Shown in pieces: positions 22,523-46,735 of a stretch of DNA of 46,735 nt. Origin of the DNA: a virus; IMG/VR virus record IMGVR_UViG_3300034072_001749, positions 1 through 46,735 of that record; one strand, given 5' to 3'. Made by a program: the position numbers and the translations under genes. Position 1 is the stretch's first letter. Each line of letters begins with the position of its first letter. Under the pieces are notes generated by a model, which saw only the letters and a list, made by a program, of their open reading frames with translations, was not told the origin of the DNA and ran no database searches.

Positions 22523-22525
22523 GGA

Positions 22526-25301: not shown

Positions 25302-25305
25302 GTCG

Positions 25306-27159: not shown

Positions 27160-27162
27160 GGA

Positions 27163-29568: not shown

Positions 29569-29571
29569 GGG

Positions 29572-30036: not shown

Positions 30037-30039
30037 GTG

Positions 30040-31131: not shown

Positions 31132-31134
31132 AGC

Positions 31135-31782
31135 TCAATGCTCCAAAAATGCGCGGGTTTCGGCGAGGATCGGCTCGCCCTGTTCTGTCTGCAGATAGCT
31201 GTCCCAGATCGGGTCTTGGGCGGCGTCCGTATCGGCCCGCTCGTCGAGGCGGCCTTGCCCAGCGATGCCGGAGGCCGACACCAGCCAGGCCTGGACATCG
31301 GCCTGCATGCGGTAGACGGCGGTGAAATCGGCGCGAACCGGCTTCACCTGGGCAATGTCGCGCAGGATCTGCGCCACCGTCAGATCATCATAGACGATGT
31401 CGCTGTCGGCCAGCAGCGGCAGCTCAAGCCGGAACGTGTAGGGATCGAGCGTCTCGCGATCCCTGAACCATTCTACGATCTGGATCATCGGATCGAAGCG
31501 ATCGAGCACGGTGCGCAGCGAGGCGGGCGTGCCCTTGCGCCGCTGAAAGGCGATGGCGTCGGCAATGGCCGCGCGCTTTTCCGCCTCGCTCCAGGCCGAG
31601 TCCCAAATATCGATCGACAATTGCCAGGCAAGCCAGGGCAGCAGGGATGCGTCGATGGTCCAGGGGTTCCACAGCGTGTCGATCGCAACCGGCACCTGTT
31701 CGAGCGAAAGGGCCGGCGCGACCGACAGCGCGCGCTCCAGCGGCGTGGCGTTAGGCGGCAGCAGATGGGCGGGATCGGCCAT
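31135..31782 (-). CDS. I: Tail protein I
   Basis: This 215-residue P2 gpI homologue has LLPPNATPLERALSVAPALS, LVPWLAWQLSIDIWDSAWSE-like LLPWLAWQLSIDIWDSAW and GTPASLRTVLDRF. It joins J in the baseplate and holds the fibres. The start is adjacent to the J stop. Confidence 0.94.
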   Translation of the reverse strand: MADPAHLLPPNATPLERALSVAPALSLEQVPVAIDTLWNPWTIDASLLPWLAWQLSIDIWDSAWSEAEKRAAIADAIAFQRRKGTPASLRTVLDRFDPMIQIVEWFRDRETLDPYTFRLELPLLADSDIVYDDLTVAQILRDIAQVKPVRADFTAVYRMQADVQAWLVSASGIAGQGRLDERADTDAAQDPIWDSYLQTEQGEPILAETRAFLEH

Positions 31783-32633: not shown

Positions 32634-32675
32634 GGCCCATGTCGGCGCGGCGGCCATGCAAGGTTAAGGCAGCGC

Positions 32676-32700
32676 TGTCGTCATGACGGGGATGACGACA
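32676..32700. promoter_or_regulatory. Late-operon operator B (candidate Ogr site)
   Basis: On the minus strand TGTCGT, then CATCCCCGTCATG, then ACGACA form a 25-bp motif with a perfect 10-bp inverted repeat CTGTCGTCAT/ATGACGACAG (32675-32684 and 32692-32701). It lies between S and J and just upstream of J. Spacing and sequence match sites A and C. Confidence 0.78.
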
Positions 32701-32703
32701 GGG

Positions 32704-33189
32704 TCAATCGGATGCTAGCAGTTCCATCGCCATCGTCATAACCGCCTCTTCTTCTTCGGCCGTCAGGCCAAGCAGGACGCGTTGTGGATAGGTCACCTCT
32801 GGCGCGCCCGGCTTGCGGCTGACGCGATCGCGCAAGCCCAACTGATGCACCTGGCCGATGCGAGCCGCCGCCGCGGTAAAGCCCACTACTGCTTCTTGCG
32901 CCGTCGCGCTGTCTCGCAACCATCGCGCCTGACGCATTTTCCGGAACATCGACCGGGCCGCGACGCGTCGCTTTATTCGGCCAAGACGATCTCGCGCCGC
33001 CTCCCCCTTGCGCTTGCGCGGGGTGAAGCCCGACCCATCCGGATTTTTCTGTTCGGCAATGCGCTGGGCCTGACTGAGGCGCAGTCGACGGGCAACGGCA
33101 CGGGCGAAACGCAAGCGTGTGGCCGGCGTGACCGATGCCAGGATACGGCCAAGCTCCAGATCCAGCGGCGCGAACGGATCATCCGCCAT
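32704..33189 (-). CDS. S: Tail completion protein S
   Basis: This 161-residue P2 gpS homologue has RLSQAQRIAEQKNPDGSGFT and KKKGKA-like PRKRKGEAARD plus FTAAAARIGQVHQLGLRD. It is last in the O-N-M-L-lysis-R-S operon. The start lies 3 nt from the R stop. Confidence 0.93.
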   Translation of the reverse strand: MADDPFAPLDLELGRILASVTPATRLRFARAVARRLRLSQAQRIAEQKNPDGSGFTPRKRKGEAARDRLGRIKRRVAARSMFRKMRQARWLRDSATAQEAVVGFTAAAARIGQVHQLGLRDRVSRKPGAPEVTYPQRVLLGLTAEEEEAVMTMAMELLASD

Positions 33190-33192
33190 GGA

Positions 33193-33693
33193 TCAGGACA
33201 GGGGAAACAGGGGTTCGCCGCCCAGCCACAGGGCGGTTAGCGGAGGCCCATCCCCCAGCCCGGCCAAAGCCAGTTCGTCCGGCATGGCTAGCGGCGGCTC
33301 CTCGAGATGGACGATGTCATGGCCGCCATCTTCGCGGGGAATCAGGGTGACCGCTTCCGTCAGATTGAGCGTGATGTCGAGGTCGATGGCGCCGCCGCCC
33401 AATATGTCCGCCTCGAAACCGATAGCCTCGTTTCCGGTGCCATAATTCTGGAGCAGATCGACCTGCTCTACCGACAGCCAGCGGACTATTGCGAGCATCA
33501 CGACATCAGGATGACCGGTGAAGTCCAGCAGCGTGGCGCGCAGGCGATAGCGATATTCGAAGCTAGGGCGCCCCGGGTGGAAGCGCGTGGCAATGCGCCC
33601 CTGATCGACATAGATGGCGAGCCGATCGGGATCGCGCGCATATTCCGGGACGGCGGCGACCAGGGCGGCGCGCAGACGATCGGGCTTCAGCAT
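33193..33693 (-). CDS. R: Tail completion protein R
   Basis: This 166-residue P2 gpR homologue has KPDRLRAALVAAVPEYARDP, RFEYRYRLR-like FEYRYRLRATLLDFTGHPD and LTEAVTLIPREDGG. It overlaps the Rz1-like stop by 7 nt and S follows closely. Confidence 0.92.
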   Translation of the reverse strand: MLKPDRLRAALVAAVPEYARDPDRLAIYVDQGRIATRFHPGRPSFEYRYRLRATLLDFTGHPDVVMLAIVRWLSVEQVDLLQNYGTGNEAIGFEADILGGGAIDLDITLNLTEAVTLIPREDGGHDIVHLEEPPLAMPDELALAGLGDGPPLTALWLGGEPLFPLS

Positions 33694-33992
33694 GGCGCGT
33701 CGGGGCGGTGCCAGCGGATCAGCCGGCGCAGCTGGGAGGAGACATCGGCATAGGCCTGGGCCAGGCCAATCATCGGTGCACGGATCTCCGCCGGAATGGA
33801 TGCGGTGCGATCCTGCGGAAAGGCAGCGGGCACATCCGGGCAGAGGAGCAATGCCGCCGGCGGACGGCTATCGAGCGGCAACGCGATCACGGCCGGGGCC
33901 GGACGCGCCGTCTGGCGCGCGGCGCAGCCCTGCAACGCGGTTGAGAGCGTCAAACCAAGGGCCAGACACCCGATCCTGATCGATGCGGTCAT
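33687..33992 (-). CDS. Outer-membrane spanin lipoprotein (Rz1-like)
   Basis: This 101-residue protein has a lipobox-like LSTALQGC with Cys23 after a hydrophobic start, and a proline-rich mature part. It starts inside the Rz-like gene in another frame, overlapping it by 125 nt, the classic nested Rz/Rz1 arrangement. It would anchor in the outer membrane. Confidence 0.78.
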   Translation of the reverse strand: MTASIRIGCLALGLTLSTALQGCAARQTARPAPAVIALPLDSRPPAALLLCPDVPAAFPQDRTASIPAEIRAPMIGLAQAYADVSSQLRRLIRWHRPDAPC

Positions 33993-34383
33993 TCTCTTTC
34001 TCCATGGCGGCTAGGGCTTCGCGGGCGGTGCGCGCGTCGGCGCCGGCGCTGGCGGCGTCACCCTCAACCCGGGCGCGTTCACTGGCCTGATGCGCGGCCA
34101 ACGTGCGGTTCGATTCGGCCAGCGTCTCGCGCTCGAAGCGGGCGAGCGTGCCAAGCCGCAGGGTGCAGGCATCCGCGCGGCGGACTATGCCGGCGTCGGC
34201 CGCGATCGGCGCGTCGACGAAGGCGCAGGCGGTGCTGGCCCAGCGGCTCCAGGCATCACGGTCACGCCGCACCTGTTCATATTGGACATAGAGCCAGGCC
34301 CCTACCCCCGCCACGGCGAGCAAAGTGAGCCATTCCCGGCGCGCGGTGATGGCGGACCAGAGGCTCTTGACCAGGGCGATCAT
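33868..34383 (-). CDS. Inner-membrane spanin (Rz-like)
   Basis: This 171-residue protein has a single N-terminal membrane segment (WLTLLAVAGVGAWLYVQY, about 18-35) and a long coiled-coil periplasmic part. With the nested Rz1-like lipoprotein it would form the spanin complex that fuses inner and outer membranes at lysis. It overlaps the endolysin gene stop (ATGA). Confidence 0.8.
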   Translation of the reverse strand: MIALVKSLWSAITARREWLTLLAVAGVGAWLYVQYEQVRRDRDAWSRWASTACAFVDAPIAADAGIVRRADACTLRLGTLARFERETLAESNRTLAAHQASERARVEGDAASAGADARTAREALAAMEKENDRIDQDRVSGPWFDALNRVAGLRRAPDGASGPGRDRVAAR

Positions 34384-34919
34384 GACACCCTGTTCCGAAA
34401 CCAGCCGAACACGAAATCCTCATTGGCGGGCCGCGATCGTGCCAGATATTTATAGCGCTCGCCCTGTGAGCTGTTCAGGGCACGGAGCATGACAATCTCC
34501 GCATCGGCGCCGCGCGCCTTCAGATAGGCGCGGAAGGCCGTCAACGTCTTCGGCCCGATATCCCCATCTTCCTTGATATCGGGATAGAGCTTACCCTGCG
34601 CGTTGAAGGCGTTGAGCGATTCCTGAAACCAGAGCGCGGGAACCGATGGCCCCATGTTGACGCCCGTATCGAACAGCTCTTCACCCACCGCCGCGTTGAT
34701 TTCCGCAACGGCGGCAAAGCCGGTGTCGATGGCGTAGAGCTGCCGATAAATGGCCACTGCTGTCGCGCGAGGCAACAGACGCATATCCCCCTGATATCCC
34801 TGTTTCCGGGCCACGCGCTCGGTAATGCCCCACATGGTGGCGCCGCCAGTGTCGGAGGGGTGGTTTGAATAGCCGCCTTCACGGCCAATGACGTTGTCGA
34901 TCAGCGTTTCAATGCTCAT
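34380..34919 (-). CDS. Endolysin (GH108 with peptidoglycan-binding domain)
   Basis: This 179-residue protein starts MSIETLIDNVIGREGGYSNH with the GH108 catalytic Glu14 in EGGY, then TGGATMWGITERVAR. A C-terminal peptidoglycan-binding domain (DGDIGPKTLTAFRAYL) follows. There is no signal peptide, so it depends on the holin at 34923-35267. Confidence 0.93.
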   Translation of the reverse strand: MSIETLIDNVIGREGGYSNHPSDTGGATMWGITERVARKQGYQGDMRLLPRATAVAIYRQLYAIDTGFAAVAEINAAVGEELFDTGVNMGPSVPALWFQESLNAFNAQGKLYPDIKEDGDIGPKTLTAFRAYLKARGADAEIVMLRALNSSQGERYKYLARSRPANEDFVFGWFRNRVS

Positions 34920-34922
34920 GGA

Positions 34923-35267
34923 TCATTCCTTTTCCGGGATAAATCGCTTGCGCAGATCCGCTGGGAGGGCGCCGATCACATCGACACCGCCGGCAATGAA
35001 CCGAGGGGTGGCCTTGAACGCGATCATGGCGAGCACGAAGCTGATGGCGTCGGAGACGAACGGATCGAGGCGCAGCCAGGCCTCCAGGCCGCCGCCGACA
35101 TAATAGGACACGCATATGCCTATCGCCCACTGCATCAGCCGCTGGCTGAAGGAGAGGCCCTTTTCCCAGGCCTGGCCAACAGCCGCGCCGATCGCCGCCG
35201 GTGCCAGCGCGGATGCCGCGTCCTGCAGCCCGGCGATAATCTGATGAAGGAAGCCTTCGGATGCCAT
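34923..35267 (-). CDS. Holin-like membrane protein
   Basis: This 114-residue protein has two hydrophobic segments (LMQWAIGICVSYYVGG and FVSDAISFVLAMIAF). It lies 3 nt before the endolysin gene in the lysis cluster, between X and the endolysin. It probably forms the membrane pore that releases the endolysin. Confidence 0.75.
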   Translation of the reverse strand: MASEGFLHQIIAGLQDAASALAPAAIGAAVGQAWEKGLSFSQRLMQWAIGICVSYYVGGGLEAWLRLDPFVSDAISFVLAMIAFKATPRFIAGGVDVIGALPADLRKRFIPEKE

Positions 35268-35270
35268 GGA

Positions 35271-35480
35271 TCAATCCCACAAATTTACGAGAGCGACGGG
35301 CTCAGCCGAGGGCGAAACCGTGTCTGGAATGGTGACGATGCGCCCTTCGGCCAGTTGCGGGCCCTCGCCGGCCAGGCCGATATTGGCGGCCAGCACCGCC
35401 TGAACCACCGATGGGCCGCCGCCGTTGATGCGCCACACCAACTGGTCGATGCTTTCGCCCTGGACAGCCCGGACCTGCAT
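35271..35480 (-). CDS. X: Tail protein X
   Basis: This 69-residue LysM-like P2 gpX homologue reads MQVRAVQGESIDQLVWRING and VLAANIGLAGEGPQL. The start overlaps the L stop by one base. Confidence 0.93.
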   Translation of the reverse strand: MQVRAVQGESIDQLVWRINGGGPSVVQAVLAANIGLAGEGPQLAEGRIVTIPDTVSPSAEPVALVNLWD

Positions 35481-35971
35481 CAGATCAGCTCGGCATGGAT
35501 GCGCGGCACGGCGAGGATATCGCGCACGGCATGCAGGCCATCGCGGCGATAATCGTCCGCTGACAGCGCGCGCGCCTCCGCCCGGTCACTGCCGTCACCG
35601 GTGGCGCTGACATCACGGTGCGTTTCCGCCAGTTCGGCGCAGGCATAGTTGAAGATGGCGCGGCGCCAACGATGGCCATACCAGTTGCCGCCGTCGATAT
35701 CCGGCATGCCGGGAATGGCATCAGCACGGTCATAGCCGTCGAGCACCTGGGCCGTGCGCCATTCGGCCAGCTCGCGCATTGCCGTCGTCATGGCGGCGAT
35801 CACCGCCTCACGCAGACGCGCGTCCGTGACCGCCGTGCCCGTGCGCATGGCATCACGCAGATCGTGCAGGTCGATATCGGGGAAGAAGCCGTCCGCCGCC
35901 ACCAGCAGCGTGCAATCGGGCGAACCCGGGCAGGCGATCGACGGCGCGGGGACAGAAACGAAGCCGCTCAT
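35480..35971 (-). CDS. L: Head completion protein L
   Basis: This 163-residue P2 gpL homologue has FFPDIDLHDLRDAMRTGTAV, AMRELAEWRTAQVLDGY and WYGHRWRRAIFNYACAELAE, all family features. It caps the portal vertex after packaging. Before it, 35972-36128 holds no visible gene. Confidence 0.94.
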   Translation of the reverse strand: MSGFVSVPAPSIACPGSPDCTLLVAADGFFPDIDLHDLRDAMRTGTAVTDARLREAVIAAMTTAMRELAEWRTAQVLDGYDRADAIPGMPDIDGGNWYGHRWRRAIFNYACAELAETHRDVSATGDGSDRAEARALSADDYRRDGLHAVRDILAVPRIHAELI

Positions 35972-36128
35972 TTTCTTCCTTCCTGGTTCGCCCCGCGAAT
36001 TGGGGGGTGGGGAAAATGCGATCAGGGCGAATCCAGTAGCTGGGTGCCCTGCTCACTCTTTCCGCCCCCCAGACGCCGCGGGGCGAGCTGTTGGCCGGAC
36101 CTAGGGCCGGTGAACCGAAATGGGCCGA

Positions 36129-36260
36129 TCAACGCGGTGCGCGCGGGTGACCCGTGATCAGATGATCATGATGACGATGGCGGTAGAGGTTCGCCGCGAT
36201 CGGCAGCGCGAACATCAGCAGCACGAAGGCCAGCAGAATGAGACCGGGAAATAGATCCAT
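36129..36260 (-). CDS. Tiny membrane protein between M and L
   Basis: This 43-residue frame reads MDLFPGLILLAFVLLMFALP then IAANLYRHRHHDHLIT, with a single membrane segment and a histidine-rich basic tail. AAAGGAG lies 8 nt before the ATG. It lies in the capsid operon; its role is unknown. Confidence 0.6.
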   Translation of the reverse strand: MDLFPGLILLAFVLLMFALPIAANLYRHRHHDHLITGHPRAPR

Positions 36261-36274
36261 GATGTTACTCCTTT

Positions 36275-37036
36275 CTAAGCCGTGGGAGCCGGAATGGCCT
36301 TGGCCAGGCGTTCGAGCCGATCGACCTCCTTCTTGACGCCGACCGCGCTGTTGAGGCGCAGGGCCTCCTTCAGCTGGGCCAGGGCGGCGGACAGGGCCGC
36401 GCCCTTCCCGCCCGCCGGCCCGCTGTCGCCGGCCTCCATCCCCTCCGCCTTGCGCCCCAGCGCCAGGCCGATCGCCTTGCACAGCTTGGCGCGGACCGGA
36501 TCGAGCATATCCTTGTCAGCGGTGGCATCGGCCACGAAGCTGAGCCAGTCGAGATCGCAATCCTCACCCTGCTGGAGCCGCGCGAGCGCATTGTCCGCGC
36601 TGACTTCGGCGATAAATGTCGGGGCCGTCCTCGAAAAACGCTCCGGCAGGGCAAGGTCATGGTCGAGCACATAGGATACGGTCGACAGGGCGCGTTCATG
36701 GTCACCGATGTCGAGCGCCCACATCATCATGTGCAGGACGATATCATCCTGGACCGGCTTGCCGCCGGCAGACACGGCATCGAGCACGCCGGCAATCCAG
36801 GGGTCATATTTCTCGATCAGCTCGCGCTTCAGGTCGATCTTGCGATCGACCGCCTGGATGGACTTGAGCGCCTTCAGATCGGTGTCGAGTTCGGCCAGCT
36901 GCAGCTGGTAAGCGGACGCGCCCTCCCCCGTGACCACGGCAAGGCCATCCGTCTTGCCACCGTCACGCGTTTTCAGGACAGCCAGCTGCGCGCTCTTGCG
37001 CGCAAAATGCCGCTGGGCGGGGGTAAGGCGCGCCAC
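36275..37036 (-). CDS. M: Terminase endonuclease/small subunit M
   Basis: This 253-residue P2 gpM homologue has LTPAQRHFARKSAQLA near the start, then ELDTDLKALKSIQAVDRKID and DPWIAGVLDAV, and an IGDHERALSTVSYVLDHDLA motif. It cuts cos and starts packaging with P. Capsid gene N lies immediately upstream. Confidence 0.94.
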   Translation of the reverse strand: MARLTPAQRHFARKSAQLAVLKTRDGGKTDGLAVVTGEGASAYQLQLAELDTDLKALKSIQAVDRKIDLKRELIEKYDPWIAGVLDAVSAGGKPVQDDIVLHMMMWALDIGDHERALSTVSYVLDHDLALPERFSRTAPTFIAEVSADNALARLQQGEDCDLDWLSFVADATADKDMLDPVRAKLCKAIGLALGRKAEGMEAGDSGPAGGKGAALSAALAQLKEALRLNSAVGVKKEVDRLERLAKAIPAPTA

Positions 37037-37040
37037 CGGA

Positions 37041-38060
37041 TCAGCCCTCCGCCGCGAGCAGCTCGATATTTTCGAGCAGGAAGGTGGCCTCGTAATCCTC
37101 GATCACATAGCCTTCGTTCGACGAGTTATAGTCGGCCACGCGATCGGCCTCCGGCTCATCCTTGATGTGGCGGCGGCGCTTGCCATCCTGGAAATAGAGG
37201 GAAACGTTGGACAGCGGCGTGACCCAGATGGTGCCGTCCGGGAAGAAGGGCGGCGTCACCGGCGTCTTGCCGCCCAGGCGCTTGCTGGCCATGATCTGGT
37301 TGAGGGCCAGTTCCTCGGACGGCTTTTCGTCCTTGTTGACCTTCTCGAAATATTTGTCGTGGAGCAGATCCGCCGCGCAGATGGCCACCAGATCGGTGCG
37401 GTTGCGCATCCAGCTGGGTAGAAGCGAATGGGTGGCGTCCATCACCAGGGCGTCGAGATTGGCATAGTCACCGCCCTGGCCGATGGTGATCTTGCCGCTG
37501 CCAGCCACGACCTCATCCATGACGCGCGCCGCATTGTTGGTGCGCATGTCATGCAGCCAGCCCTTGTTGACGTCCTGCAGCAGGGGGTTGGTGGTGCGAT
37601 CCGTGTTGGCGGCAATGCTGGTACCGTTGAAGCCGATCATGATGCGGTCGAGCGCGCAGCGTTCGACGACGGCGGCGCCCCAGCGTGCTTGGAAGTCCGC
37701 AAATTTCGCCCACATGTCGAGCTTGGCGTAACGCAGCGCCACGTCGAAGTTGGTCTGGACCAGCTCAAAGCCCACTTCGTCCATCCCGGTCGGATCGCGC
37801 GGAACGCGGCGGCCCGCCCCGCTGGTATCGGTGCGTCCCGCAACGGTGCTGTTCACGCCCAGACCCAGCTTCGAACCCTTGAGTTCGGGAACGCCGGTGA
37901 TGTTGATGGCGGACAGGAAGGCGTGAGATTCCTGAATGCGAGTTTCCAGCGTCTGCTGGACCGAAGGCTCCACATTGAAACTTTCGGTCGGGGTGGTGCC
38001 GTTCAGCTCCTCGACGCGGGACAGATAGTGACGATAGGCCTGGCGAGTGTTCGGCTGCAT
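37041..38060 (-). CDS. N: Major capsid protein N
   Basis: This 339-residue P2-type capsid precursor begins MQPNTRQAYRHYLSRVEELN and has NITGVPELKGSKLGLGVNS, LRYAKLDMWAKF and IGFNGTSIAANTDRTTNPLL, all standard for the family. It is cut by the protease part of O. Confidence 0.96.
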   Translation of the reverse strand: MQPNTRQAYRHYLSRVEELNGTTPTESFNVEPSVQQTLETRIQESHAFLSAINITGVPELKGSKLGLGVNSTVAGRTDTSGAGRRVPRDPTGMDEVGFELVQTNFDVALRYAKLDMWAKFADFQARWGAAVVERCALDRIMIGFNGTSIAANTDRTTNPLLQDVNKGWLHDMRTNNAARVMDEVVAGSGKITIGQGGDYANLDALVMDATHSLLPSWMRNRTDLVAICAADLLHDKYFEKVNKDEKPSEELALNQIMASKRLGGKTPVTPPFFPDGTIWVTPLSNVSLYFQDGKRRRHIKDEPEADRVADYNSSNEGYVIEDYEATFLLENIELLAAEG

Positions 38061-38110
38061 GGGGTTACTCCGGTGTGCGGGTGTCGGGCAGGATCAGGGG
38101 AAAGGGCGCG

Positions 38111-38980
38111 TCAGAAATCGGCGAGCGCGAATTCGTGACCGCCACTGGCCTTCGGGCGCTGGGGGGTCTCGGTCTTTTCGGTGGTGTCGATCGACGCCTT
38201 GACGCCGGCAATCTCGCCCTTCAGTGCGGCCACATCGGCGCCCATCTTCTCCGACATGGCGGTCATGCCGGCGGTCATCTTTTCCATGCCGGTCATCAGC
38301 TGGGCGAAGCGCGCGTCATTGTCATTGGCGGGGGTGGGCTCTTCCTTGGCGGGCGGCTGTTCCTGCCCGCCCCCCTTGCCCAGGCCCTTGAAAAATTCGG
38401 TAGCGGCGGCGAACATCGACCGGTAATCGCCCGCGTCCGAAGGCGCCGGCGCATCCTCGAATTCCAGTTTGCCGACCTCCACCGCTTCCGAGAAGAAATT
38501 GCCCGGATCCTGCTTGCGGCCCACCAGGAAGCCCTGATCGCCCTTGCTCGCGGAAAACTGCAGCGCTTCGGTGCCGAGCGAAGCGGGTGAATCGGTGACG
38601 GCCAGACCCACAAGGGCGGCCTTGCCGGACTTGGCGAAATCGGGCTGGATCTCGACCGAGGTGAAGATCTTCTGCGCCTTCTGATTATAGGCCACCAGCT
38701 CGTCGGTAGGTTCGATCTGGGCATAGAGGCAGAGCTTTTTCGACGTCTTGCCGGCGATGGTGATATCGTCTTCCTGCGTCTTGACCGCGCGGACGTCACC
38801 ATAGGCCTTGAACGGGCCGTCCGCCGTGATGCCGCGAATATGCTCCATATTCACCCGCACCCCATAGGTGTCGGGGTTGAAGGTATCGGCCATCTGCTGG
38901 ATCCAGCTGCGCTCGATCGTGCGTCCGTCGACGGTGGCGCCTTCGACGGCTACGCGGTGAAATTTCGAGATCTTGCCCAT
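38111..38980 (-). CDS. O: Capsid scaffold and protease O
   Basis: This 289-residue P2 gpO homologue begins MGKISKFHRVAVEGATVDGR, with TFNPDTYGVRVNMEHIRG (protease) and a scaffold-type coiled C-terminus (about 205-275). I chose ATG 38980 over a longer in-frame reading that runs across operator A. It is first in the O-N-M-L-lysis-R-S operon. Confidence 0.94.
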   Translation of the reverse strand: MGKISKFHRVAVEGATVDGRTIERSWIQQMADTFNPDTYGVRVNMEHIRGITADGPFKAYGDVRAVKTQEDDITIAGKTSKKLCLYAQIEPTDELVAYNQKAQKIFTSVEIQPDFAKSGKAALVGLAVTDSPASLGTEALQFSASKGDQGFLVGRKQDPGNFFSEAVEVGKLEFEDAPAPSDAGDYRSMFAAATEFFKGLGKGGGQEQPPAKEEPTPANDNDARFAQLMTGMEKMTAGMTAMSEKMGADVAALKGEIAGVKASIDTTEKTETPQRPKASGGHEFALADF

Positions 38981-39079
38981 GCGGCCAACTCCGGCTGATG
39001 CTGTCACTGCGCCGGGCGGCCCCCCGCTCGGCAGATGCCGCAAAGAGCGCGCGAGGGGCGGCAAATCGCAACGCGCCCC

Positions 39080-39104
39080 TGTCGTCATCCCCGCCACCAC
39101 GACA
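39080..39104. promoter_or_regulatory. Late-operon operator A (candidate Ogr site)
   Basis: The plus strand reads TGTCGT, then CATCCCCGCCACC, then ACGACA, with an 8-bp perfect inverted repeat CCTGTCGT/ACGACAGG (39078-39085 and 39099-39106). It lies between O (leftward) and P (rightward), where P2 has its divergent PO and PP late promoters. It could serve both. Confidence 0.8.
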
Positions 39105-39150
39105 GGCAGGCGGCGAGGATCTCGGGTGCTCGCGACTAGCGTCGGCGCCG

Positions 39151-40989
39151 ATGACCCGCACTGCGCCACCACCACCCAATGCTCCGCTGGAGGGAGAGAC
39201 GTTCCTCAATCCACGGCTGCTGGCGCGCAGCCTCTATTGGCGCGGTTGGGATGTGCCGGAAATCGTCGAGGATCTGAACCGGGTCCACGGCCTGGGCCTC
39301 AACAAGAATACGGTGGCGAGCTGGAAACGGCGCGATGGCTGGGACCAGGCCAGCCCGCGCGAGCGATGCGAGGAAGTGACCGCCACCCGATATTGCATGC
39401 TGGTGGCCAAGGAACAGAAGACCGGCCAGGATTTCAAGGAAATCGACCTGCTGGGCCGGCGGATGACGGACTTCGCGCGGCAGCAGAAATTTGAGCGCGG
39501 CGGGAACGAGGCAGACCTCAACCCCAATGTTGCCGCACGCAATGTCGGGCCGAAGAAGAAGGCACGGCAGAACCTTATCACGCGCGATATGGTCGAGCAG
39601 TTGCGCCAGGCCTTCCTGGACCGGTGCTTCGGCTATCAGCTGGAATGGTGGGAAAACCGGGATAAGCGCACCCGCTTCTTGCTCAAGAGCCGCCAGATCG
39701 GCGCCACCGACTATTTCGCGCATGAGGCGTTCATTGACGCGCTGGAGACAGGACGGAACCAAATATTCCTGTCCGCCTCCCGCCGGCAGGCCAATATCTT
39801 CCGCCGTTACATCATCGAATTCTGTTTCCGTGTGACCGGCATCAGGTTGACCGGCGAGCATATCACCATCGATCGTGGTGAAGGTGAAGATGGCGTCACG
39901 ATGGAGATGCCCACCATCTTCTTCCTGGGCGCCAATTACCGCACCGCCCAAGGCGAACATGGCAATTTTTATTATGATGAATGCTTCTGGTCGATGGACT
40001 TCGAGCAGACCGATGATGTCGCCAGCGGCATGGCGAGCCAGAAGCGCTATCGCGAAACCTATTTCAGCACGCCATCGACCAAGCAGCACCAGGCCTACAA
40101 GAAATGGTCGGGCGAAAAATTCAACCAGGACCGGCCCAAGAAGGACTGGATCAAGGTCGACACCAGCTATGCCGCGCTGAAGGACGGCGCCATGGGCGCG
40201 GACGGCATATGGCGCCAGGTCGTGACGATCGAGGATGCCGAGGCCAAGGGCTGCGACCTGTTCGATGTCGAGGAGCTGCGCCGGCGCAAGTCGCCGGAAG
40301 TCTTCGAAAATCTCTACATGTGCGAGTTTATCGACGACGCGCAGTCCATGTTCCCATGGGCGCTGATGCGGCGGTGCATGGTCGACAGCGAAGACAAGTG
40401 GGATGACTTCCACCCCTATGCGCTGCGCCCCTACGCCGGTGACGTCTATCTGGGCTATGACCCCAATGGCGCGGCGGAGGGTGGCGACAAGGGCGCGCTG
40501 ATGGTGCTGGCGGCGCCGAAGACGAAGAAGGCGCCCTGGCGCGTGCTCGAGCGGCACCGCTATGACGGCAATGACTATATGGAGCAGGCCGAAAAGATCC
40601 TGCGCATGTGCAGCCGCTACAATATTGTCGGCATAGCCATCGACGCCAGCGGCATCGGTGACGCGGTCTGGCAGCTGGTGATCAAGCAGTTCGCGACCGC
40701 AAAGAAGATCGTCTATTCGGTCGAAACCAAGACACTGCTGGTCCACAAGTCGAAGAACATCATCCGGGCTGGTCGCCTGGAGTTCGACGCCGGCATGACG
40801 GACATTATCGAGGCTTTCGTCTCGATCCATGCCGAGCTCACCAACAAGCAGCGCAACGTCACCTATGTCGCCGATCGCGCCGGCGGCAACGGCCACGCCG
40901 ATGTGGCCTGGGCGACGATGAACGCCCTTTCCTTCGAAGAAATCGACGGCGAGCTCGCCGGCGGCGGCAATTACATGGAGACCTTCTGA
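39151..40989 (+). CDS. P: Terminase ATPase large subunit P
   Basis: This 612-residue P2 gpP homologue has a helical N-terminus (LYWRGWDVPEIVEDLNRVHG), an ATPase with LLKSRQIGATDYF (about 178-190) and FYYDECFW (about 271-278), and nuclease-type acidic residues in YLGYDPNG (about 433) and IAIDASGIGD (about 494). I chose ATG 39151 (MTRTAPPPP). Its stop overlaps the Q start (TGATG). Confidence 0.95.
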   Translation: MTRTAPPPPNAPLEGETFLNPRLLARSLYWRGWDVPEIVEDLNRVHGLGLNKNTVASWKRRDGWDQASPRERCEEVTATRYCMLVAKEQKTGQDFKEIDLLGRRMTDFARQQKFERGGNEADLNPNVAARNVGPKKKARQNLITRDMVEQLRQAFLDRCFGYQLEWWENRDKRTRFLLKSRQIGATDYFAHEAFIDALETGRNQIFLSASRRQANIFRRYIIEFCFRVTGIRLTGEHITIDRGEGEDGVTMEMPTIFFLGANYRTAQGEHGNFYYDECFWSMDFEQTDDVASGMASQKRYRETYFSTPSTKQHQAYKKWSGEKFNQDRPKKDWIKVDTSYAALKDGAMGADGIWRQVVTIEDAEAKGCDLFDVEELRRRKSPEVFENLYMCEFIDDAQSMFPWALMRRCMVDSEDKWDDFHPYALRPYAGDVYLGYDPNGAAEGGDKGALMVLAAPKTKKAPWRVLERHRYDGNDYMEQAEKILRMCSRYNIVGIAIDASGIGDAVWQLVIKQFATAKKIVYSVETKTLLVHKSKNIIRAGRLEFDAGMTDIIEAFVSIHAELTNKQRNVTYVADRAGGNGHADVAWATMNALSFEEIDGELAGGGNYMETF

Positions 40990-42005
40990 TGCAGGATATC
41001 GACGTCAGTGACGGCGATCAGCCTTTTGTGTTCGCCTTCGACGACGCGGTGAGCGTGCTCGATCGGCGGGACATTCTCTCCTATGTCGAATGCAACCATA
41101 ATGGCCGCTGGTATTATCCTCCGCTGTCACCGGACCATCTGGCCAAGAGCATGGATGTGGCGCCGCATCACGGCAGCTGCATCCGGTTGAAGGTCAACCT
41201 GCTGGCCCGGCAGCTGGAGCCTACGCGCTGGCTGAGCGTGGCGGAGCTGCGCAAGTTCGCCACCGATTTCTTGTGCCAGGGGAACGGCTATTTCGAGCGC
41301 CGCGACAACCTGGCGAACCGGCCGATGCGCCTGCAGACCAGCCTGGCGCGCTACACCAGGCGCGGGGTCGAGGATGGACGCTATTATTTCGTCCAGAACT
41401 GGAAGCAGGAACATGAGTTTCGGCGTGATTCGATCTTTCACCTGATCCAGGAGCACCCCACGCAAGAAATCTATGGCGTGCCCGAATATATGGGGGCGCT
41501 GCAATCGGCACTGCTCAATGAAAGCGCTACGCTATTTCGCCGCCGTTACTATCTTAACGGCAGCCATGCGGGTTTCATCCTCTATCTGAACGGCACCGAT
41601 TTCGGCCAGGTCGAAATGAAGAAGCTGTCCGAACAGATGAAACAGGCCAAGGGCGTCGGTAACTTCAAGAATATGTTGCTACATATCCCTAACGGCAAGC
41701 CGGAGGGGGTGAAGATCATCCCGATCGCCGAGGCCGGCGCGAAGGACGAATTCCTGGGCATCAAGAATGTCAGCCGTGACGACATGCTGGCATCGCACCG
41801 CACGCCGCCGCAGCTGCTGGGCGTGGTGCCGACCAATTCGGGCGGCTTCGGCGATGTGGGCAAGGCCACGGACGTCTATTTCACCAACGAAATCGAGCCA
41901 CTGCAGGGGCGCATCAGCGAGTTGAACGACTGGCTGGGCGTCGAGGCCGTGGTGTGGAAGCCCTATGAAAGGATCGGGGTCGCTGCGCCGCCTGCCACGG
42001 CGTGA
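40989..42005 (+). CDS. Q: Portal protein Q
   Basis: This 338-residue P2 gpQ homologue has NGRWYYPPLSPDHLAKSMDV, QGNGYFERRDNL and NESATLFRRRYYLNGSHAGF; the end HRTPPQLLGVVPTNSGGF is highly typical. It is coupled to P. Confidence 0.96.
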   Translation: MQDIDVSDGDQPFVFAFDDAVSVLDRRDILSYVECNHNGRWYYPPLSPDHLAKSMDVAPHHGSCIRLKVNLLARQLEPTRWLSVAELRKFATDFLCQGNGYFERRDNLANRPMRLQTSLARYTRRGVEDGRYYFVQNWKQEHEFRRDSIFHLIQEHPTQEIYGVPEYMGALQSALLNESATLFRRRYYLNGSHAGFILYLNGTDFGQVEMKKLSEQMKQAKGVGNFKNMLLHIPNGKPEGVKIIPIAEAGAKDEFLGIKNVSRDDMLASHRTPPQLLGVVPTNSGGFGDVGKATDVYFTNEIEPLQGRISELNDWLGVEAVVWKPYERIGVAAPPATA

Positions 42006-42037
42006 CCCCATAATGCCGGCGGACACAGGGCCGGCTC

Positions 42038-42859
42038 ATGGATGACCGACAAATGAACCCTTTGAGCACATCTGTGGCGCCGGTGGCGCCCGCTGCCGGC
42101 TATATTGGCGGCAAGCGCAACCTGGCTGCGCGGATCCGCGCCATCATCGATGCTGTGGAGCATGACGCCTATCGAGAGCCGTTCGTGGGCATGGGCGGCA
42201 TATTCCTGCGCCGCACCCGCCGGGTGAGGAGCGAGGCCATCAATGATATTTCCGGTGATGTGGCCACCTTCTTCCGCATCCTCCAAGAGCATTACCCCTA
42301 TTTCATCGATATGCTGCGCTTCCGCGTGGCAAGCCGGGCAGAGTTCGAACGGCTGCTGGGCATGGACCCGGCCAGGCTGACGGATCTGCAACGCGCGGCG
42401 CGCTTCCTCTATCTCCAGCGCCTGGCGTTCGGCGGGAAGGTGCGCGGGCGCAATTTCGGCGTCGACACGACCAACGGGGCGCGGTTCAACGTCACCAAGC
42501 TCGAACCGATGCTGGCGGATATTCACGAACGGCTGTCCGGCGTCGTGATCGAGCAGCTGGCCTATGGCGAATTCATCCGGCGCTATGATGGTGCGGGTGC
42601 CCTCTTCTACCTCGACCCGCCCTATTGGGGGTGCGAGACGGACTATGGCCAGGATGTCTTCGCGCCGTCTGACTTCACCGCCCTGGCGGAGCAGCTGCGC
42701 GGGATACGCGGCAAGATGCTACTGTCGATCAACGACAGGCCCGAGGTGCGCGAGATCTTCACCGGCTTCGAGATGACGGCGGTGGGCACGACATACAGCC
42801 TGGGGGCTGGCGCACCCTCTCCGGCAGGCGAATTGCTGATCAGCAACTTCCCGGTCTGA
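42038..42859 (+). CDS. DNA adenine methylase, D12 class
   Basis: This 273-residue Dam-like enzyme has YIGGKRNLAARI, the SAM site PFVGMGG (48-54) and the catalytic DPPYWG (193-198). It methylates adenine N6, probably in GATC-like sites, but the target cannot be read. It is cargo at the packaging end, downstream of Q and near cos, and is the second methylase of this prophage. No endonuclease partner is seen. Confidence 0.9.
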   Translation: MDDRQMNPLSTSVAPVAPAAGYIGGKRNLAARIRAIIDAVEHDAYREPFVGMGGIFLRRTRRVRSEAINDISGDVATFFRILQEHYPYFIDMLRFRVASRAEFERLLGMDPARLTDLQRAARFLYLQRLAFGGKVRGRNFGVDTTNGARFNVTKLEPMLADIHERLSGVVIEQLAYGEFIRRYDGAGALFYLDPPYWGCETDYGQDVFAPSDFTALAEQLRGIRGKMLLSINDRPEVREIFTGFEMTAVGTTYSLGAGAPSPAGELLISNFPV

Positions 42860-42871
42860 CGGATGATACCG

Positions 42872-42896
42872 CCCCGCGTCGAGATCCGGCGCGGGG
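42872..42896. terminator. Hairpin between convergent genes
   Basis: CCCCGCG (42872-42878) pairs with CGCGGGG (42890-42896) across an 11-nt loop. It lies between the methylase (plus) and the convergent zinc-ribbon gene (minus). No long T tract follows, so it is a weak terminator. Confidence 0.4.
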
Positions 42897-42911
42897 GGTT
42901 CCTCGCACCAC

Positions 42912-43256
42912 TCACCCTCGGGCTGATCTGATCAGCCGCTTCCGGCCATAATGATCGGCCGCGTGCCAGGCGCGCGGGCTTATCCCTTTGGGCACCCCAG
43001 CAGAGGGCGGGGTAATCCGGCTATCCGGCGCCGGATCTAGCGCGAAGTAGACATGCACGGGCCGCAGGCCGCATCCTCGACATCGGAACAGCCGCACTAC
43101 CAGGCGCCAATCGGTTCGCAGACTTCGCTGCCAGCAATGGTCGATCATGTCGTTCACCGTGACCGCGCCTGCCCGCCCGCAGCGCGGACAGCGCAGGGCT
43201 ATGTGCCCGACCTCCCCCCGCAAATCCTCCAATCGTGATGCCACGCGCCTCGACAT
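42912..43256 (-). CDS. Zinc-ribbon hypothetical protein
   Basis: This 114-residue protein begins MSRRVASRLEDLRGEVGHIA and has LRCPRCGRAG, DMIDHCW and FRCRGCGLRP, a C-x2-C...C-x2-C ribbon. It reads leftward from a region with two TTGAAA palindromes (43333-43387), which may control it. It lies next to cos. Function unknown; DNA binding is plausible. Confidence 0.65.
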   Translation of the reverse strand: MSRRVASRLEDLRGEVGHIALRCPRCGRAGAVTVNDMIDHCWQRSLRTDWRLVVRLFRCRGCGLRPVHVYFALDPAPDSRITPPSAGVPKGISPRAWHAADHYGRKRLIRSARG

Positions 43257-43332
43257 GTGGGTGATGGTGAACAAATAGAGAACAATAGGCAATCCGCCTT
43301 GTTGTCGGCGCTGCGCAATCCATTGCTCAACC

Positions 43333-43387
43333 TTGAAACATTATTTCAAGCGCATCGATATTTCCCAATCTTGAAATAATATTTCAA
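43333..43387. repeat. Two 17-bp palindromes near cos
   Basis: TTGAAACATTATTTCAA (43333-43349) and TTGAAATAATATTTCAA (43371-43387) are spaced 38 bp apart. Both read TTGAAA-N5-TTTCAA. They lie between the zinc-ribbon gene and cos, so they could be operators for that gene or terminase-binding sites. Confidence 0.7.
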
Positions 43388-43411
43388 ATCATCCGCCCTG
43401 ACCCGACGCGC

Positions 43412-43445
43412 CGCGCTTGCCCCCGCGCCTCGCCCGCACGCTTTT
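43412..43445 (-). other. Prophage cos-like packaging site
   Basis: On the minus strand the 34-bp segment contains GCGGGCGAGGCG followed by CGGGGGCAAGCGCG. P2's cohesive end begins GGCGAGGCGGGG (from memory of P2 literature). Position (beyond Q) and orientation agree with P2's left end. A matching sequence lies at 45173-45206. Confidence 0.7.
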
Positions 43446-43606
43446 GGCGTGACGTTTCGTGCAATGCGGAGCGCTGCTTGCATCCCGCAGTCATTGGCCC
43501 TGCACCGGGCCATCTGCCGACGATCGTGAGTGCGCCTTCGTGCGCTGCATGTGCAGTCCGCACCACCGGTCAACGAGAACCATAGGCCAGGCCCCATTTT
43601 GGCAGC

Positions 43607-43853
43607 GCCTAACATCCCTAACGCCACCGGCAGATGTCGCTTTAAACCCACGGAAAACAGCCATTTTCTTGATTAGACCTCATCCCTTTCAATCTCTAAC
43701 CACCACCATGCCAAATCCCTTACCCGACTGATAAATAAGGAAAATTATATCAATAAAAGTTAGATTACCTCCCTCTAATCCGGTTAGCATCTGGTTAGGC
43801 CAATGGTTATGTCTGTAAGCCGCAGAAATCCGCCGATGTTAGGGATGTTAGGC
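43607..43853. repeat. GTTAG/CTAAC repeat cluster, AT-rich region
   Basis: The 16-bp GCCTAACATCCCTAAC (43607-43622) recurs inverted as GTTAGGGATGTTAGGC (43838-43853). Between them are several GTTAG/CTAAC units (about 43698, 43764, 43790) in an AT-rich, gene-free stretch. It resembles iterons of an origin or regulator-binding cluster. Nothing else is seen in 43446-43956. Confidence 0.5.
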
Positions 43854-43956
43854 CCTTTTCGAAGCCGCCATTTTAATAGGGAGGTTTTCGCAATTATTCC
43901 TCCTCTCAAGGAAATCGAATAATCTGCGCTGAGATTCAGGCTGAGAATCGCCGAAC

Positions 43957-43991
43957 CGGACTGTCCAAGCGGTAGCGCTCCTCCGCTACCA
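43957..43991. other. attR: phage left arm plus core
   Basis: The core 43978-43991 is identical to 926-939. The left arm 43957-43977 is the inverted complement of 932-952 at 19 of 21 bases. Right of 43991 the sequence is not phage-like. Confidence 0.88.
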
Positions 43992-44096
43992 ACGGTAAGA
44001 TACCTATCCTGATCTTTGCGTTTCGAAGGGGCATTGTGTGCTCACCGGAAACGCTATTTCAAGCGAAATTCTGCATTCATCCGCTGGAGCCTGCGC

Positions 44097-44879
44097 ATGA
44101 CCGCGCGCGCATTCGGCGAAATCGCGTTCGGCTTCCTCGATCGCAAAGAATCGACCAGCCAGGACAAGCCGCCCCGCCGCTGGAGCTATGATGCCAACGA
44201 TCGGCGTGCGCAGGTATTTCGCCGCGTAGGCGATGGCAGCAAGGAACAAGGTTGGTCCTTGATCGGTGCCATGATGCAAGCTTTCGACGAGACCCTGCAG
44301 CAACAACGGATCAACGGCTATAAGGGCAAGGACCGTCTGCAGGATGGTGACCGGCGCATCCTGCTGGCGCTGCTCAAGCGCCTCGACTTCAAAACCGGCC
44401 GCCTGGACCCGTCCTACGCTGAACTTGCGGCCAAAGCTGGCTGCCATCGCAACACCGTGATCAAGGCATGCTATCGCTTTGTGAGGTGGCTAGGTCTGCG
44501 TTGGGTGCGGCGCACGACTGAGGCCGAGACGGTTGGCCAGAAAGGCCCTCAGCGAGAGCAAATCTCCAATGCCTTCTTCTTCGACATCCGATCGCTCCCG
44601 AACCGGGTCAAGCAACGCTGGCGCGAAGCCGTAAAGCGCCATTTTGCCAACAAAGGGCAACAGCCTCCGAAGGCAGTGACCAACTACGTCGAAGGCATCT
44701 CACCGCCCGACAGCCCCATCTGGCATCCCGAGTTTCGATCGAATATCGAAGCTGAAGAACGGAAGGGCAAAGCGGGATCACGCGCCCTGAATGAACGACT
44801 GGAAGCCCTCGGCCGCGCGCTCGATAGAGCCGCTAACGCGGGCACACAGAAAGTGCACTATCCTAGGGAAAGCTATTAA
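44097..44879 (+). CDS. Replication-initiator-like protein (RepA-type, winged helix)
   Basis: This 260-residue protein starts MTARAFGEIAFGFLDRKEST with TGGAG before the ATG; a TTG at 44016 would add 27 residues. A winged-helix region (DRRILLALLKRLDF, YAELAAKAGCHRNTVIKACY) is typical of plasmid and satellite replication initiators. It begins 105 nt right of attR, outside the P2-like prophage. I think it is the core of a second small element, as it is followed by a cos-like site. It could also be a stray plasmid gene. Confidence 0.6.
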   Translation: MTARAFGEIAFGFLDRKESTSQDKPPRRWSYDANDRRAQVFRRVGDGSKEQGWSLIGAMMQAFDETLQQQRINGYKGKDRLQDGDRRILLALLKRLDFKTGRLDPSYAELAAKAGCHRNTVIKACYRFVRWLGLRWVRRTTEAETVGQKGPQREQISNAFFFDIRSLPNRVKQRWREAVKRHFANKGQQPPKAVTNYVEGISPPDSPIWHPEFRSNIEAEERKGKAGSRALNERLEALGRALDRAANAGTQKVHYPRESY

Positions 44880-45114
44880 AGATTAAAAAGGACTGGCTGC
44901 GCCAGGCGTAGATTTGCGGAGATCACCACCACCATCGCCTTCAAGGGCCAGCAAACCGCTCCGATCGAACGTCGGGGACCGGTGCCGCTTGCGCGCCACC
45001 GGGGGCTTCCCAGGGGGAGCCCAGGTCGAAATGAGCGTATTGATCGAATGCCGCGCTAGCGGCCACCCGCGTGCATCAGTTTGCATCAGCGCGCAGTGTT
45101 GTAGGACAGGTCTT

Positions 45115-45133
45115 CGGCCTAGGACCTAGGCCG
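45115..45133 (+). terminator. 19-bp palindrome after the rep-like gene
   Basis: CGGCCTAGG-A-CCTAGGCCG is a perfect palindrome followed by TTTTAT. It could end rep transcription (stem CGGCC/GGCCG, T-rich tail) or bind a protein. It lies 40 bp before the cos-like site. No convincing gene is seen in the rest of 44880-45393. Confidence 0.5.
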
Positions 45134-45172
45134 TTTTATGCCGAATGCCGGCAGTGCATCAAAACCGACATA

Positions 45173-45206
45173 AAAAGCGCGCGGGCGAGGCGGGGGAATA
45201 AGCGCG
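45173..45206 (+). other. Second cos-like site, outside the prophage
   Basis: The plus strand contains GCGGGCGAGGCG then GGGGAATAAGCGCG. It matches the prophage cos segment at 29 of 34 positions without gaps and contains GGCGAGGCGGGG, the start of the P2 cohesive end as I remember it. It lies 0.3 kb after the rep-like gene. A satellite using its helper's cos would look like this. Confidence 0.58.
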
Positions 45207-45342
45207 TTCTCAGGGGTGGCGGCCGCCCGGATCGCCGCCAGCCCCCCGCCGCTGGGCGGTCTGGCGTCGCCGGGCGTCGATCGGCCCGCCTTGGCCCCGA
45301 ATTGAGATGACCTAGCGCGCAATAATCTTACGCGGTTTCCAG

Positions 45343-45375
45343 TTGACCGAATCGCCTGATGTTCTTCATATGTTC
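45343..45375 (+). promoter_or_regulatory. Promoter with LexA-type SOS box
   Basis: A -35 TTGACC (45343-45348), 17-nt spacer and -10 TCATAT (45366-45371) precede the 45394 gene. GTTC-TTCATAT-GTTC (45361-45375) is a perfect alphaproteobacterial LexA box and overlaps the -10, so LexA should repress this operon. Confidence 0.7.
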
Positions 45376-45393
45376 TCATCAAGGAGACTTGGC

Positions 45394-45567
45394 ATGGATC
45401 GGATCAACGATATCCGCGACGCGGTTGCGAGAGCGCTGGAGGCGCGCGGCTTGGACAACAGGAAGTTTCTGGGCGAACTGCGCGCGGGCCAGCGCGACGA
45501 CGGCCCCTATATGATCGGCGCCCTGGCCTGCGCGGCATTGGCCAAGATCGATATCATAGCGGAATGA
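45394..45567 (+). CDS. Small SOS-controlled protein (host)
   Basis: The 57-residue protein starts MDRINDIRDAVARALEARGL with AAGGAG 7 nt before the ATG. It is helical with LAKIDIIAE at the end. It is first in a two-gene operon behind the SOS box. Function unknown; I recognise no domain. Confidence 0.7.
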   Translation: MDRINDIRDAVARALEARGLDNRKFLGELRAGQRDDGPYMIGALACAALAKIDIIAE

Positions 45568-45568
45568 C

Positions 45569-45898
45569 GTGGCGCGGTATCAGGATGGTTTGAAAGTCCC
45601 GACCTCGCTGTTCGAGGCCGCTGCCTGGCATTATGCGGTCAAGGTGTCCTGCGGATGCGGGCATTTCGCGGTGTTCGATCCGCATGGCCTCTTCTGGCGT
45701 TTCCATCGCAAGGGATGGCCCGACAGCTTGGTCGATGCGAAGCGCCGACTATGGTGCAAATCGTGCCGCTCGTCGCTCGGCCAGAAGGTTCGCCCCAGGC
45801 GCGTTGACCTTGTGAAGCCTTATTCCGGCCCACGCATCACCTTGCCCCTGCCGGACGAACGGGAATGGAAGCGTATCATCAACCAATACAGAGGGTGA
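45569..45898 (+). CDS. Zinc-finger hypothetical protein (host)
   Basis: The 109-residue protein starts with GTG (MARYQDGLKVPTSLFEAAAW) and has SCGCGHFAVFDPHG and WCKSCRSSLGQKV, a CxC...CxxC pattern. I have an impression of similar small proteins in sphingomonad chromosomes but cannot confirm it. It follows the 57-residue gene by 1 nt in the SOS operon. Confidence 0.7.
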   Translation: MARYQDGLKVPTSLFEAAAWHYAVKVSCGCGHFAVFDPHGLFWRFHRKGWPDSLVDAKRRLWCKSCRSSLGQKVRPRRVDLVKPYSGPRITLPLPDEREWKRIINQYRG

Positions 45899-45918
45899 TG
45901 CATTACGGCGCACTTAAG

Positions 45919-45970
45919 GCGGTCGGTTCGCTCCTGGGCAGAAAAGCTGCCCGGCCCGAAGCGACCACTT
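45919..45970. repeat. 52-bp dispersed repeat, copy 1
   Basis: This segment, starting GCGGTCGGTTCGCTCCTGGG, matches 46245-46296 at 44 of 52 bases. The inner CCTGGGC...GCCCGG can pair. The copies flank the small membrane gene; they look like host intergenic repeats. Confidence 0.75.
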
Positions 45971-46003
45971 GCAGACATACTATGCACAGCATAGGGTTTC
46001 GAA

Positions 46004-46192
46004 ATGCGCGACTTTAGGGCCATCATTTTTGCAGTCATCGGGCTGGCAATTTACCATTTATCTTTGCTGGCGCTGCATGCAGTGGGCATGAATGGCTGGG
46101 TCGCAGCTAGTCTTGCATGCGTACTTAGCATTGCGACTGTTTTTGCCATTCTTAAATTTTGGCGGCTAATACGACAGCGGACGGGCAGCTAA
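46004..46192 (+). CDS. Small inner-membrane protein (host)
   Basis: This 62-residue protein, MRDFRAIIFAVIGLAIYHLS onward, has two hydrophobic segments (AIIFAVIGLAIYHLSLLAL and WVAASLACVLSIATVFAIL) and a basic tail. AGGG lies 7 nt upstream. Its AT content is higher than the neighbours. Function unknown. Confidence 0.55.
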   Translation: MRDFRAIIFAVIGLAIYHLSLLALHAVGMNGWVAASLACVLSIATVFAILKFWRLIRQRTGS

Positions 46193-46244
46193 CCACCCCC
46201 TGATAGACGCTCATCGCGCCGATCGGTGCCAGGCACACCCGACA

Positions 46245-46296
46245 GCGGTCGGTCCGCACCTGGGCGGGAAAGCTCCCCGGCAGGAAGCGACCATTT
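46245..46296. repeat. 52-bp dispersed repeat, copy 2
   Basis: This copy starts GCGGTCGGTCCGCACCTGGG and matches copy 1 at 44 of 52 bases. It lies in the gap between the small membrane gene and the partial ORF. No gene is visible in 46193-46376. Confidence 0.75.
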
Positions 46297-46376
46297 CTTG
46301 CCGTCCGTTCGGAAAATTGGATTGCCCGCAACTGGCCATTCGTTCAGCTTGATCAATTGAGTCTGGGGGGCGTCGT

Positions 46377-46735
46377 ATGGGCCAAAAGGAACGAATGGAC
46401 TGCGCGAACAATGCTTGGGAAGCGGCACCTTGGGATGCCAGTGATGAGATTGCCGACAGTCAGTTGAAAGGGTTCCAGCAGCGGTCCGAATGGCCGATTT
46501 TTTGGACCTCGGTTCGAGAATCGTCCGCAGAATTGTTTGGACTGGACAGGCAGTGGTTCATTTCTCGCGACGTTGAATATTATGCGGAACATGCCGGTGA
46601 GCAGCTATTGCTCATGCAGCTTGCATGGCACGGCTTTCCTGATCCTCCAGAATGGCGATTGGCTTCACGAAGCGCCGGAAAAATCGATGTGCCATGGAGC
46701 GAATGGGGCTATTTCGCTAAGTTACCCCAAGCTTG
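46377..46735 (+). CDS. Hypothetical protein, truncated by window end
   Basis: An ATG at 46377 follows GGGGGG by 5 nt and opens a frame that stays open to the right edge (about 119 codons). It starts MGQKERMDCANNAWEAAPWD and contains RQWFISRDVEYYAEHAGEQL. Aromatic-rich, no known domain. The 3' end lies outside the window. Confidence 0.55.
   Translation, partial: MGQKERMDCANNAWEAAPWDASDEIADSQLKGFQQRSEWPIFWTSVRESSAELFGLDRQWFISRDVEYYAEHAGEQLLLMQLAWHGFPDPPEWRLASRSAGKIDVPWSEWGYFAKLPQA

Follow-up and report, generated by a model that had tools for sequence, protein, structure and literature searches.

A phage attachment site inside a large serine integrase gene, with probable insertion into tRNA-Met and exchange of the integrase C-terminus

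The window, meaning the whole stretch of 46,735 bases analysed here, is an IMG/VR virus record that holds a single prophage with apparently host DNA on both sides; the hosts of the virus are soil and water bacteria. Terminase, portal, major head and tail proteins were identified in the prophage (Pfam, PHROG), and its head, portal, terminase and tail genes are presumably P2-like. The features of the attachment region are collected in Table 1. Directly after attR, a gene at 44016-44879 has a weak HTH_36 match below the cut-off (Pfam); it is also found 3' of the tRNA in L260, a relative with an empty site, and may be part of another element at the same tRNA. On the minus strand, positions 4408-5634 encode a DNA-binding protein of 408 residues; it has several matches to helix-turn-helix domains and a remote one to a “D5-like” regulator.

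Table 1. Features of the prophage and its attachment sites in the window
Feature	Position	Strand	Basis
Prophage, circle of about 43.05 kb between the crossover points	929..43980		Circle size; presumed P2-like head and tail genes
Right flank	43992..46735		Same sequence 3' of the tRNA in empty-site relative L260
Large serine integrase (int), prophage form of 543 aa; Resolvase, Recombinase and zinc ribbon	896..2527	-	Pfam, PHROG integrase, PDB profile
tRNA-Met(CAT), regenerated target gene	863..939	+	ARAGORN; identical tRNA in empty-site relative L260
Core of attL, CTCCTCCGCTACCA; crossover dinucleotide CC = 928-929 (tRNA nt 65-66)	926..939	+	Position from family comparison
Right arm of rebuilt attP dyad (P')	932..952	+	Arm match
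Left arm of rebuilt attP dyad (P)	43957..43977	+	Arm match
Core copy in attR; crossover dinucleotide CC = 43980-43981	43978..43991	+	Core repeat
Prophage-form tail GLEPPTRGL with its stop, encoded antisense to the host tRNA-Met	896..925	-	Sequence
Free-form tail RYRLDSPVRRFSA with its stop; contiguous with int in the excised circle only	43936..43977	-	Rebuilt; natural counterpart L005

The integrase scores 85.7 bits with PF00239, 78.1 with PF07508 and 46.2 with PF13408, all above the curated cut-offs, and PDB profiles match it to the solved SPbeta integrase (5.4e-30) and to those of A118 and TP901-1. Its Resolvase, Recombinase and zinc-ribbon domains and long C-terminal helices are like those of the SPbeta YokA, A118, TP901-1 and phiC31 enzymes. 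The catalytic serine of serine integrases is held in the motif Y-x-R-x-S, and Y13, R15 and S17 are invariant across 38 aligned members of the clade. Large serine integrases carry out the attP x attB reaction alone and require a directionality factor for excision. Their attP is a dyad-symmetric site of about 48 bp, with a non-palindromic central dinucleotide in common with attB.

When the prophage ends are joined, they give CGGACTGTCCAAGCGGTAGCG-CTCCTC-CGCTACCACTTGTACAGTCCG, a dyad of this size around a short core, with an inferred two-base crossover, in which 19 of 21 arm positions are complementary (the mismatches are 11 and 16 positions away from the centre) and the central dinucleotide is CC. 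The sequence-only reading had claimed these arms as inverted repeats around CTCCTC, a core shared with tRNA-Met and a symmetry of the kind expected for serine integrases, and all three points were borne out. The 14 bp of the core are repeated exactly and in direct orientation, the identity stopping at both edges, and constitute the 3' end of the tRNA-Met(CAT) gene detected by ARAGORN, of which nt 66-76 (929-939) come from the prophage side of attL; the sole integrase found is the large serine recombinase. With the left arm slid against the fixed right arm, none of 42,900 prophage positions reaches 19/21. The 14 outer arm positions, which are not derived from the tRNA, contain 12 matches, a score equalled at one of the 42,900 positions (mean 3.5, sd 1.5).

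The empty site, given by 401-939 joined to the sequence after 43991, was searched in 397 genomes that belong to the same family as the Sphingomonas sp. genome G005. At least 264 matches were obtained; among the matches listed, most span little beyond the tRNA, and the left flank and tRNA are contiguous in three genomes (L260, L259 and L261). The sequence-only reading had predicted that in an uninterrupted genome the tRNA would continue into the sequence after 43991, and this is what L260 displays: left flank, identical tRNA and the right flank of the window are contiguous, the first 14 bases after the tRNA being identical and 805 of 1143 aligned bases agreeing overall. L259 and L261 have the same left flank and tRNA with a different sequence 3' of the tRNA, and are uninformative. 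The prediction is thus confirmed by one genome and contradicted by no genome having the right flank. As far as assembled sequences can tell, the anatomy of the att sites and the empty site are established.

Relatives of the integrase were collected from genome contigs (80 kept of 139) and from 41 viral contigs, at least four of which repeat loci of another set. The int frame ends within an antisense tRNA at 61 of the 80 genome loci (60 tRNA-Met and one tRNA-Gly); the others comprise three with a tRNA-antisense tail but without a complete tRNA, three that run off the contig and 13 with none. A separate search found relatives in 49 of the 397 genomes of G005's family. Thirty loci from those 49 genomes, three of them repeating earlier loci, were classified by reading: 10 end in elongator tRNA-Met, eight in initiator tRNA-Met and three in tRNA-Gly, while three stop just short of the tRNA or run across it, four have none and two are unreadable. 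The use of a tRNA by a serine integrase had been called unusual at the outset. Set against what PMC4383910 says of tRNA targets the remark is fair, but the clade is widespread rather than isolated, and a serine-recombinase phage at tRNA-Met already has an entry in print (PMC6536676). One contig of the collection, titled Nostoc favosum (L084), closely resembles Phyllobacterium (L065) in its integrase tail and tRNA-Met, and is probably a rhizobial contamination of the assembly.

An attR was located at 26 of 41 loci with a nearby tRNA (8 of 14, 11 of 13 new and 7 of 14 in three rounds), which, with the window, gives 27 rebuilt attPs. Interiors of 1.3 to 80 kb were searched, the short ones at loci whose core was known from an earlier pattern search; for L012 only 2 kb were covered. 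Five earlier misses re-tested in the second round were again negative, and sites with a dyad below 9 were dropped in the third. Since an exact 7-nt match to the tRNA end was required in the second and third rounds, diverged attRs would have been missed; within these limits, attR was not found at 15 of the 41 loci (L012, L019, L022, L041, L045, L069, L202, L215, L036, L042, L046, L047, L040, L066 and L071). Over the 27 rebuilt attPs, the dyad averages 15.0 of 21 with its centre 11 nt from the tRNA 3' end, as against 4.4-7.1 at all other offsets from -23 to +12, and the outer arms alone average 10.2 of 14 at offset -11 as against 3.3-4.4 at the others from -17 to -5. The weakest accepted site, in L065, has a dyad of 9 and no clear maximum. 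Numbered from the tRNA 3' end, the centre falls at nt 65|66, which we take to be the junction of T-stem and acceptor stem, in elongator Met, initiator Met and Gly tRNAs alike.

The central dinucleotide is common to tRNA and attP in 26 of the 27 rebuilt sites. L211 was discarded as a true exception, because it has three tandem att sites of which the outermost fits. Cores are 12-14 nt long in most members; the shortest begin exactly at the central dinucleotide (L088, L213, L212 and L076), and on the other side of the core L004 differs at the last tRNA base. It is by combining these limits of identity with the dyad centre that the crossover is placed at the two CC copies of Table 1, and the central CC, put forward earlier as a candidate, is now strongly supported by sequence comparison as the crossover dinucleotide. 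Eleven further attP-like sites, found without rebuilding, have a mean dyad of 11.5 at the same offset and 3.5-6.5 elsewhere (Rhizobium phage RR1-A 12, Mae-JY30 17, L005/L093 17; six of the seven fMet-type sites are weak, at 7-11). Eight of these, in host-genome contigs, may be tandem-prophage junctions; the eleven were therefore not all accepted as true attPs, and RR1-A, Mae-JY30 and L005 alone were kept as free forms. L005 was rejected as part of a tandem array because, with up to one mismatch allowed, it contains the core only once, which makes a free phage genome more likely.

Two loci of this set show peculiarities of their own. In the attL of L004 (last 90 bases), the rebuilt tRNA-Met reads ...CGCTACCG rather than ...CGCTACCA, so that the prophage supplies a tRNA 3' end without encoded CCA. 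L213 (L236-L238) has two attR-like sites with the same core, at positions 17615 and 25686, 8 kb apart, as if elements were nested or in tandem at a single tRNA-Met; at the cut-off used, that region yielded no further integrase of the clade.

Could the site belong to something other than the serine integrase, or not be an attachment site at all? The inverted repeat sits at the 3' end of a gene, as an int transcription terminator would. This identity is highly improbable and was rejected: in the circle the open frame continues for 18 nt and a stop beyond the dyad, no T-run lies downstream of it, the arms adjoin only once the prophage is excised, and the dyad centres of the family coincide with nt 65|66 of three types of tRNA, no relative having been seen with the dyad but without the relation to a tRNA. 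That an ordinary tyrosine integrase uses the tRNA, with the serine recombinase as a bystander, would suit the statement in PMC4383910 that tRNA-targeting integrases are mostly tyrosine recombinases. Against it, PF00589 has no match in the window record in a search that was positive in all 14 control genomes, and it is the serine gene that adjoins and crosses attL and whose relatives so commonly end in antisense tRNA. With no tyrosine recombinase found in the record, this identity was also dropped, as very unlikely indeed.

The 3' end of int contains the attP, and as the insertion point lies within the gene, each insertion swaps the end of the integrase. In the prophage, the frame crosses attL and stops at a TGA inside the tRNA-Met, the complement of tRNA U33-C34-A35 (...VAEEGLEPPTRGL); in the rebuilt circle it continues on the other phage end (...VAEERYRLDSPVRRFSA) to a protein of 547 aa. 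What follows VAEE is thus GLEPPTRGL in the one and RYRLDSPVRRFSA in the other. Natural forms agree with the rebuilding: the viral contig L005 is a free form ending in ...VAEERYRLDSPLKKFRV, and the phage records RR1-A and Mae-JY30 have attP inside int with the phage-encoded tails ...VAGERFEQSPQIILGRFVA and ...VAEVRSNPSPPFRFGVIAA. Read from these records, the swap of the int tail is established.

The free tail stays conserved, in its reading frame, past the dyad. Sphingomonad elongator-Met tails are equal in length in 12 of 13 cases, with different stops (seven TGA, four TAG and one TAA). Beyond the dyad, the mean pairwise BLOSUM62 score is +1.13 in frame versus -0.45 and -0.62 in the other frames, a value reached by none of 2000 within-sequence shuffles, and codon position 2 is the least variable (0.485 versus 0.621 and 0.672). 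These features make protein-level selection on the tail a well-supported reading. Across all target classes, the last residue is A or V in 28 of 38 free tails, compared with 272 of 1033 background long ORFs from the same DNA, and 19 of 38 end in [hydrophobic]-x-[A/V], compared with 74 of 1033, tails related by descent being not independent in these counts; the A/V ending is absent from some, such as L088, L213, L056, L065 and L085. C-terminal protease signals of the ssrA-tag type resemble such an ending, with A or V last and a hydrophobic residue at -3. The tails are mostly basic (mean net charge +2.3, n=38). In a structure model of the L005 protein, the core is folded (mean pLDDT 81, pTM 0.61) and the tail outside it, residues 526-548, is disordered, so that the swap should leave the core intact.

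We consider it highly likely that this site serves a P2-like temperate phage as attP and that the phage is inserted into tRNA-Met at CC by its large serine integrase, the int tail being swapped in the process. The integrase would recombine at the two-base CC between tRNA nt 65 and 66; attP would supply nt 66-76, and the tRNA would thereby be rebuilt. In the free circle, int would end in the conserved 13-residue tail; in the prophage this would give way to the antisense peptide, its stop fixed by the complement of U33-C34-A35. In its most likely role, the free tail would set the lifetime or activity of the integrase in the phage form, and integration itself would remove it. The two integrase forms would then be expected to differ in activity. 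For a regulatory role of some kind, the indications seem evenly balanced; that the tail is specifically a degradation signal is a less probable proposal. In a tentative version, which we hold possible while expecting it to fail rather than succeed, the tail may be self-erasing: a [hydrophobic]-x-[A/V]-COOH signal, conferring short life or a bias to integration, would be cut off at nt 65|66 and replaced by a host-encoded, anticodon-terminated peptide, so that the act of integration itself would change the enzyme, and some members would extend the scheme with two or three in-frame att sites, any of them usable.

Two other views accept the att site but not this use of the tail. The swap may be incidental to the packing of attP into the end of int, both tails being inert, and the predicted disorder, the long or unusual tails of some relatives (L088, L213 and L065) and the few loci that keep a tRNA-like tail in the element itself would all fit. 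The equal length of the sphingomonad tails despite their different stops, the in-frame conservation past the dyad and the A/V ending shared by all target classes argue otherwise, and we regard inert tails as unlikely. The free tail may instead be needed for the reaction, as a basic peptide on DNA or on the synaptic tetramer, integration then exchanging an active tail for a weaker one with no degradation signal removed. The positive charge of the tails suits this role, as does the report that the swap in Mx8 changes the specificity of its integrase, made in a review (PMC6070905). The strongest common feature, A or V last with a hydrophobic residue at -3, would nevertheless be typical of C-terminal recognition and not of DNA binding, and a tail acting in the reaction seems somewhat improbable.

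How new is such an arrangement? The best-known large serine integrases use protein-coding or intergenic targets and keep one protein sequence, whereas this clade targets tRNA genes at a fixed position and has its attP within the int coding sequence. Each element has some precedent, the closest being Myxococcus phage Mx8, whose Int is a tyrosine-type enzyme, and one Paracoccus phage. For Mx8, attP is placed within the integrase gene (intP) and integration creates a new int 3' end (PMC6070905, PMC4383910). Here too attP lies inside the int frame and integration gives a different C-terminus, as seen from the rebuilt circle and the free forms L005, RR1-A and Mae-JY30, but the enzyme is a serine integrase, three tRNA types are targeted at one fixed position, the free tail is conserved clade-wide and the other tail is antisense tRNA. 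The Paracoccus phage vB_PamS_Pami6 is active and has a serine recombinase and a predicted tRNA-Met integration site (PMC6536676); it is a single case in a table, and the passages on it describe neither crossover mapping nor a C-terminal change.

The integration-dependent immunity of mycobacteriophage BPs likewise rests on an attP within a gene, and in these phages an ssrA-like tag is mentioned on the gene split by attP (PMC4557955). The split gene there is the repressor, unlike here, where it is int, with its tail replaced by host-encoded residues; immunity of the BPs type was accordingly rejected. As with the tRNA-targeting tyrosine integrases, such as IntS of a Mesorhizobium ICE, attP includes the 3' part of its target tRNA without mismatch (PMC5882170), but the enzyme family is unrelated, the core is short in most members and the dyad is centred at nt 65|66. 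IntM of Mesorhizobium was discarded as a serine precedent, since the same paper names it a tyrosine recombinase (PMC5882170). The combination in a serine integrase of a fixed position in three tRNA types, a conserved free tail and an antisense-tRNA tail was not found in the literature searched; the att tables of a large serine-recombinase survey (PMC10083194) may hold members. By using one structural position in three tRNA types, the clade offers many att pairs ready for use in conserved host genes. The tail swap suggests a connection of integration with integrase control that can be tested, and it shows how a conserved RNA gene of the host can serve a phage as protein-coding sequence.

The arrangement is varied at several loci. 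In L017/L096, L078, L097, L098 and L104, int terminates in the 3' part of a tRNA that lacks its 5' half; these roughly 44 nt, from the anticodon loop onwards, take the place of the phage-specific tail. As the element itself carries the tRNA-type tail, the swap would be silent there, and it is not universal. The int frame of L207 passes through a triple array of in-frame att-like sites with a spacing of 51 bp (17 codons). This array recurs in the attR of L211 (L239-L241), which would fit use of the outermost, host-side site. L208 has kept one unused att site and is integrated at the next, and L066 has two sites 57 bp (19 codons) apart. With either spacing the int frame stays open, and members appear to have used different sites of a tandem array of att dyads.
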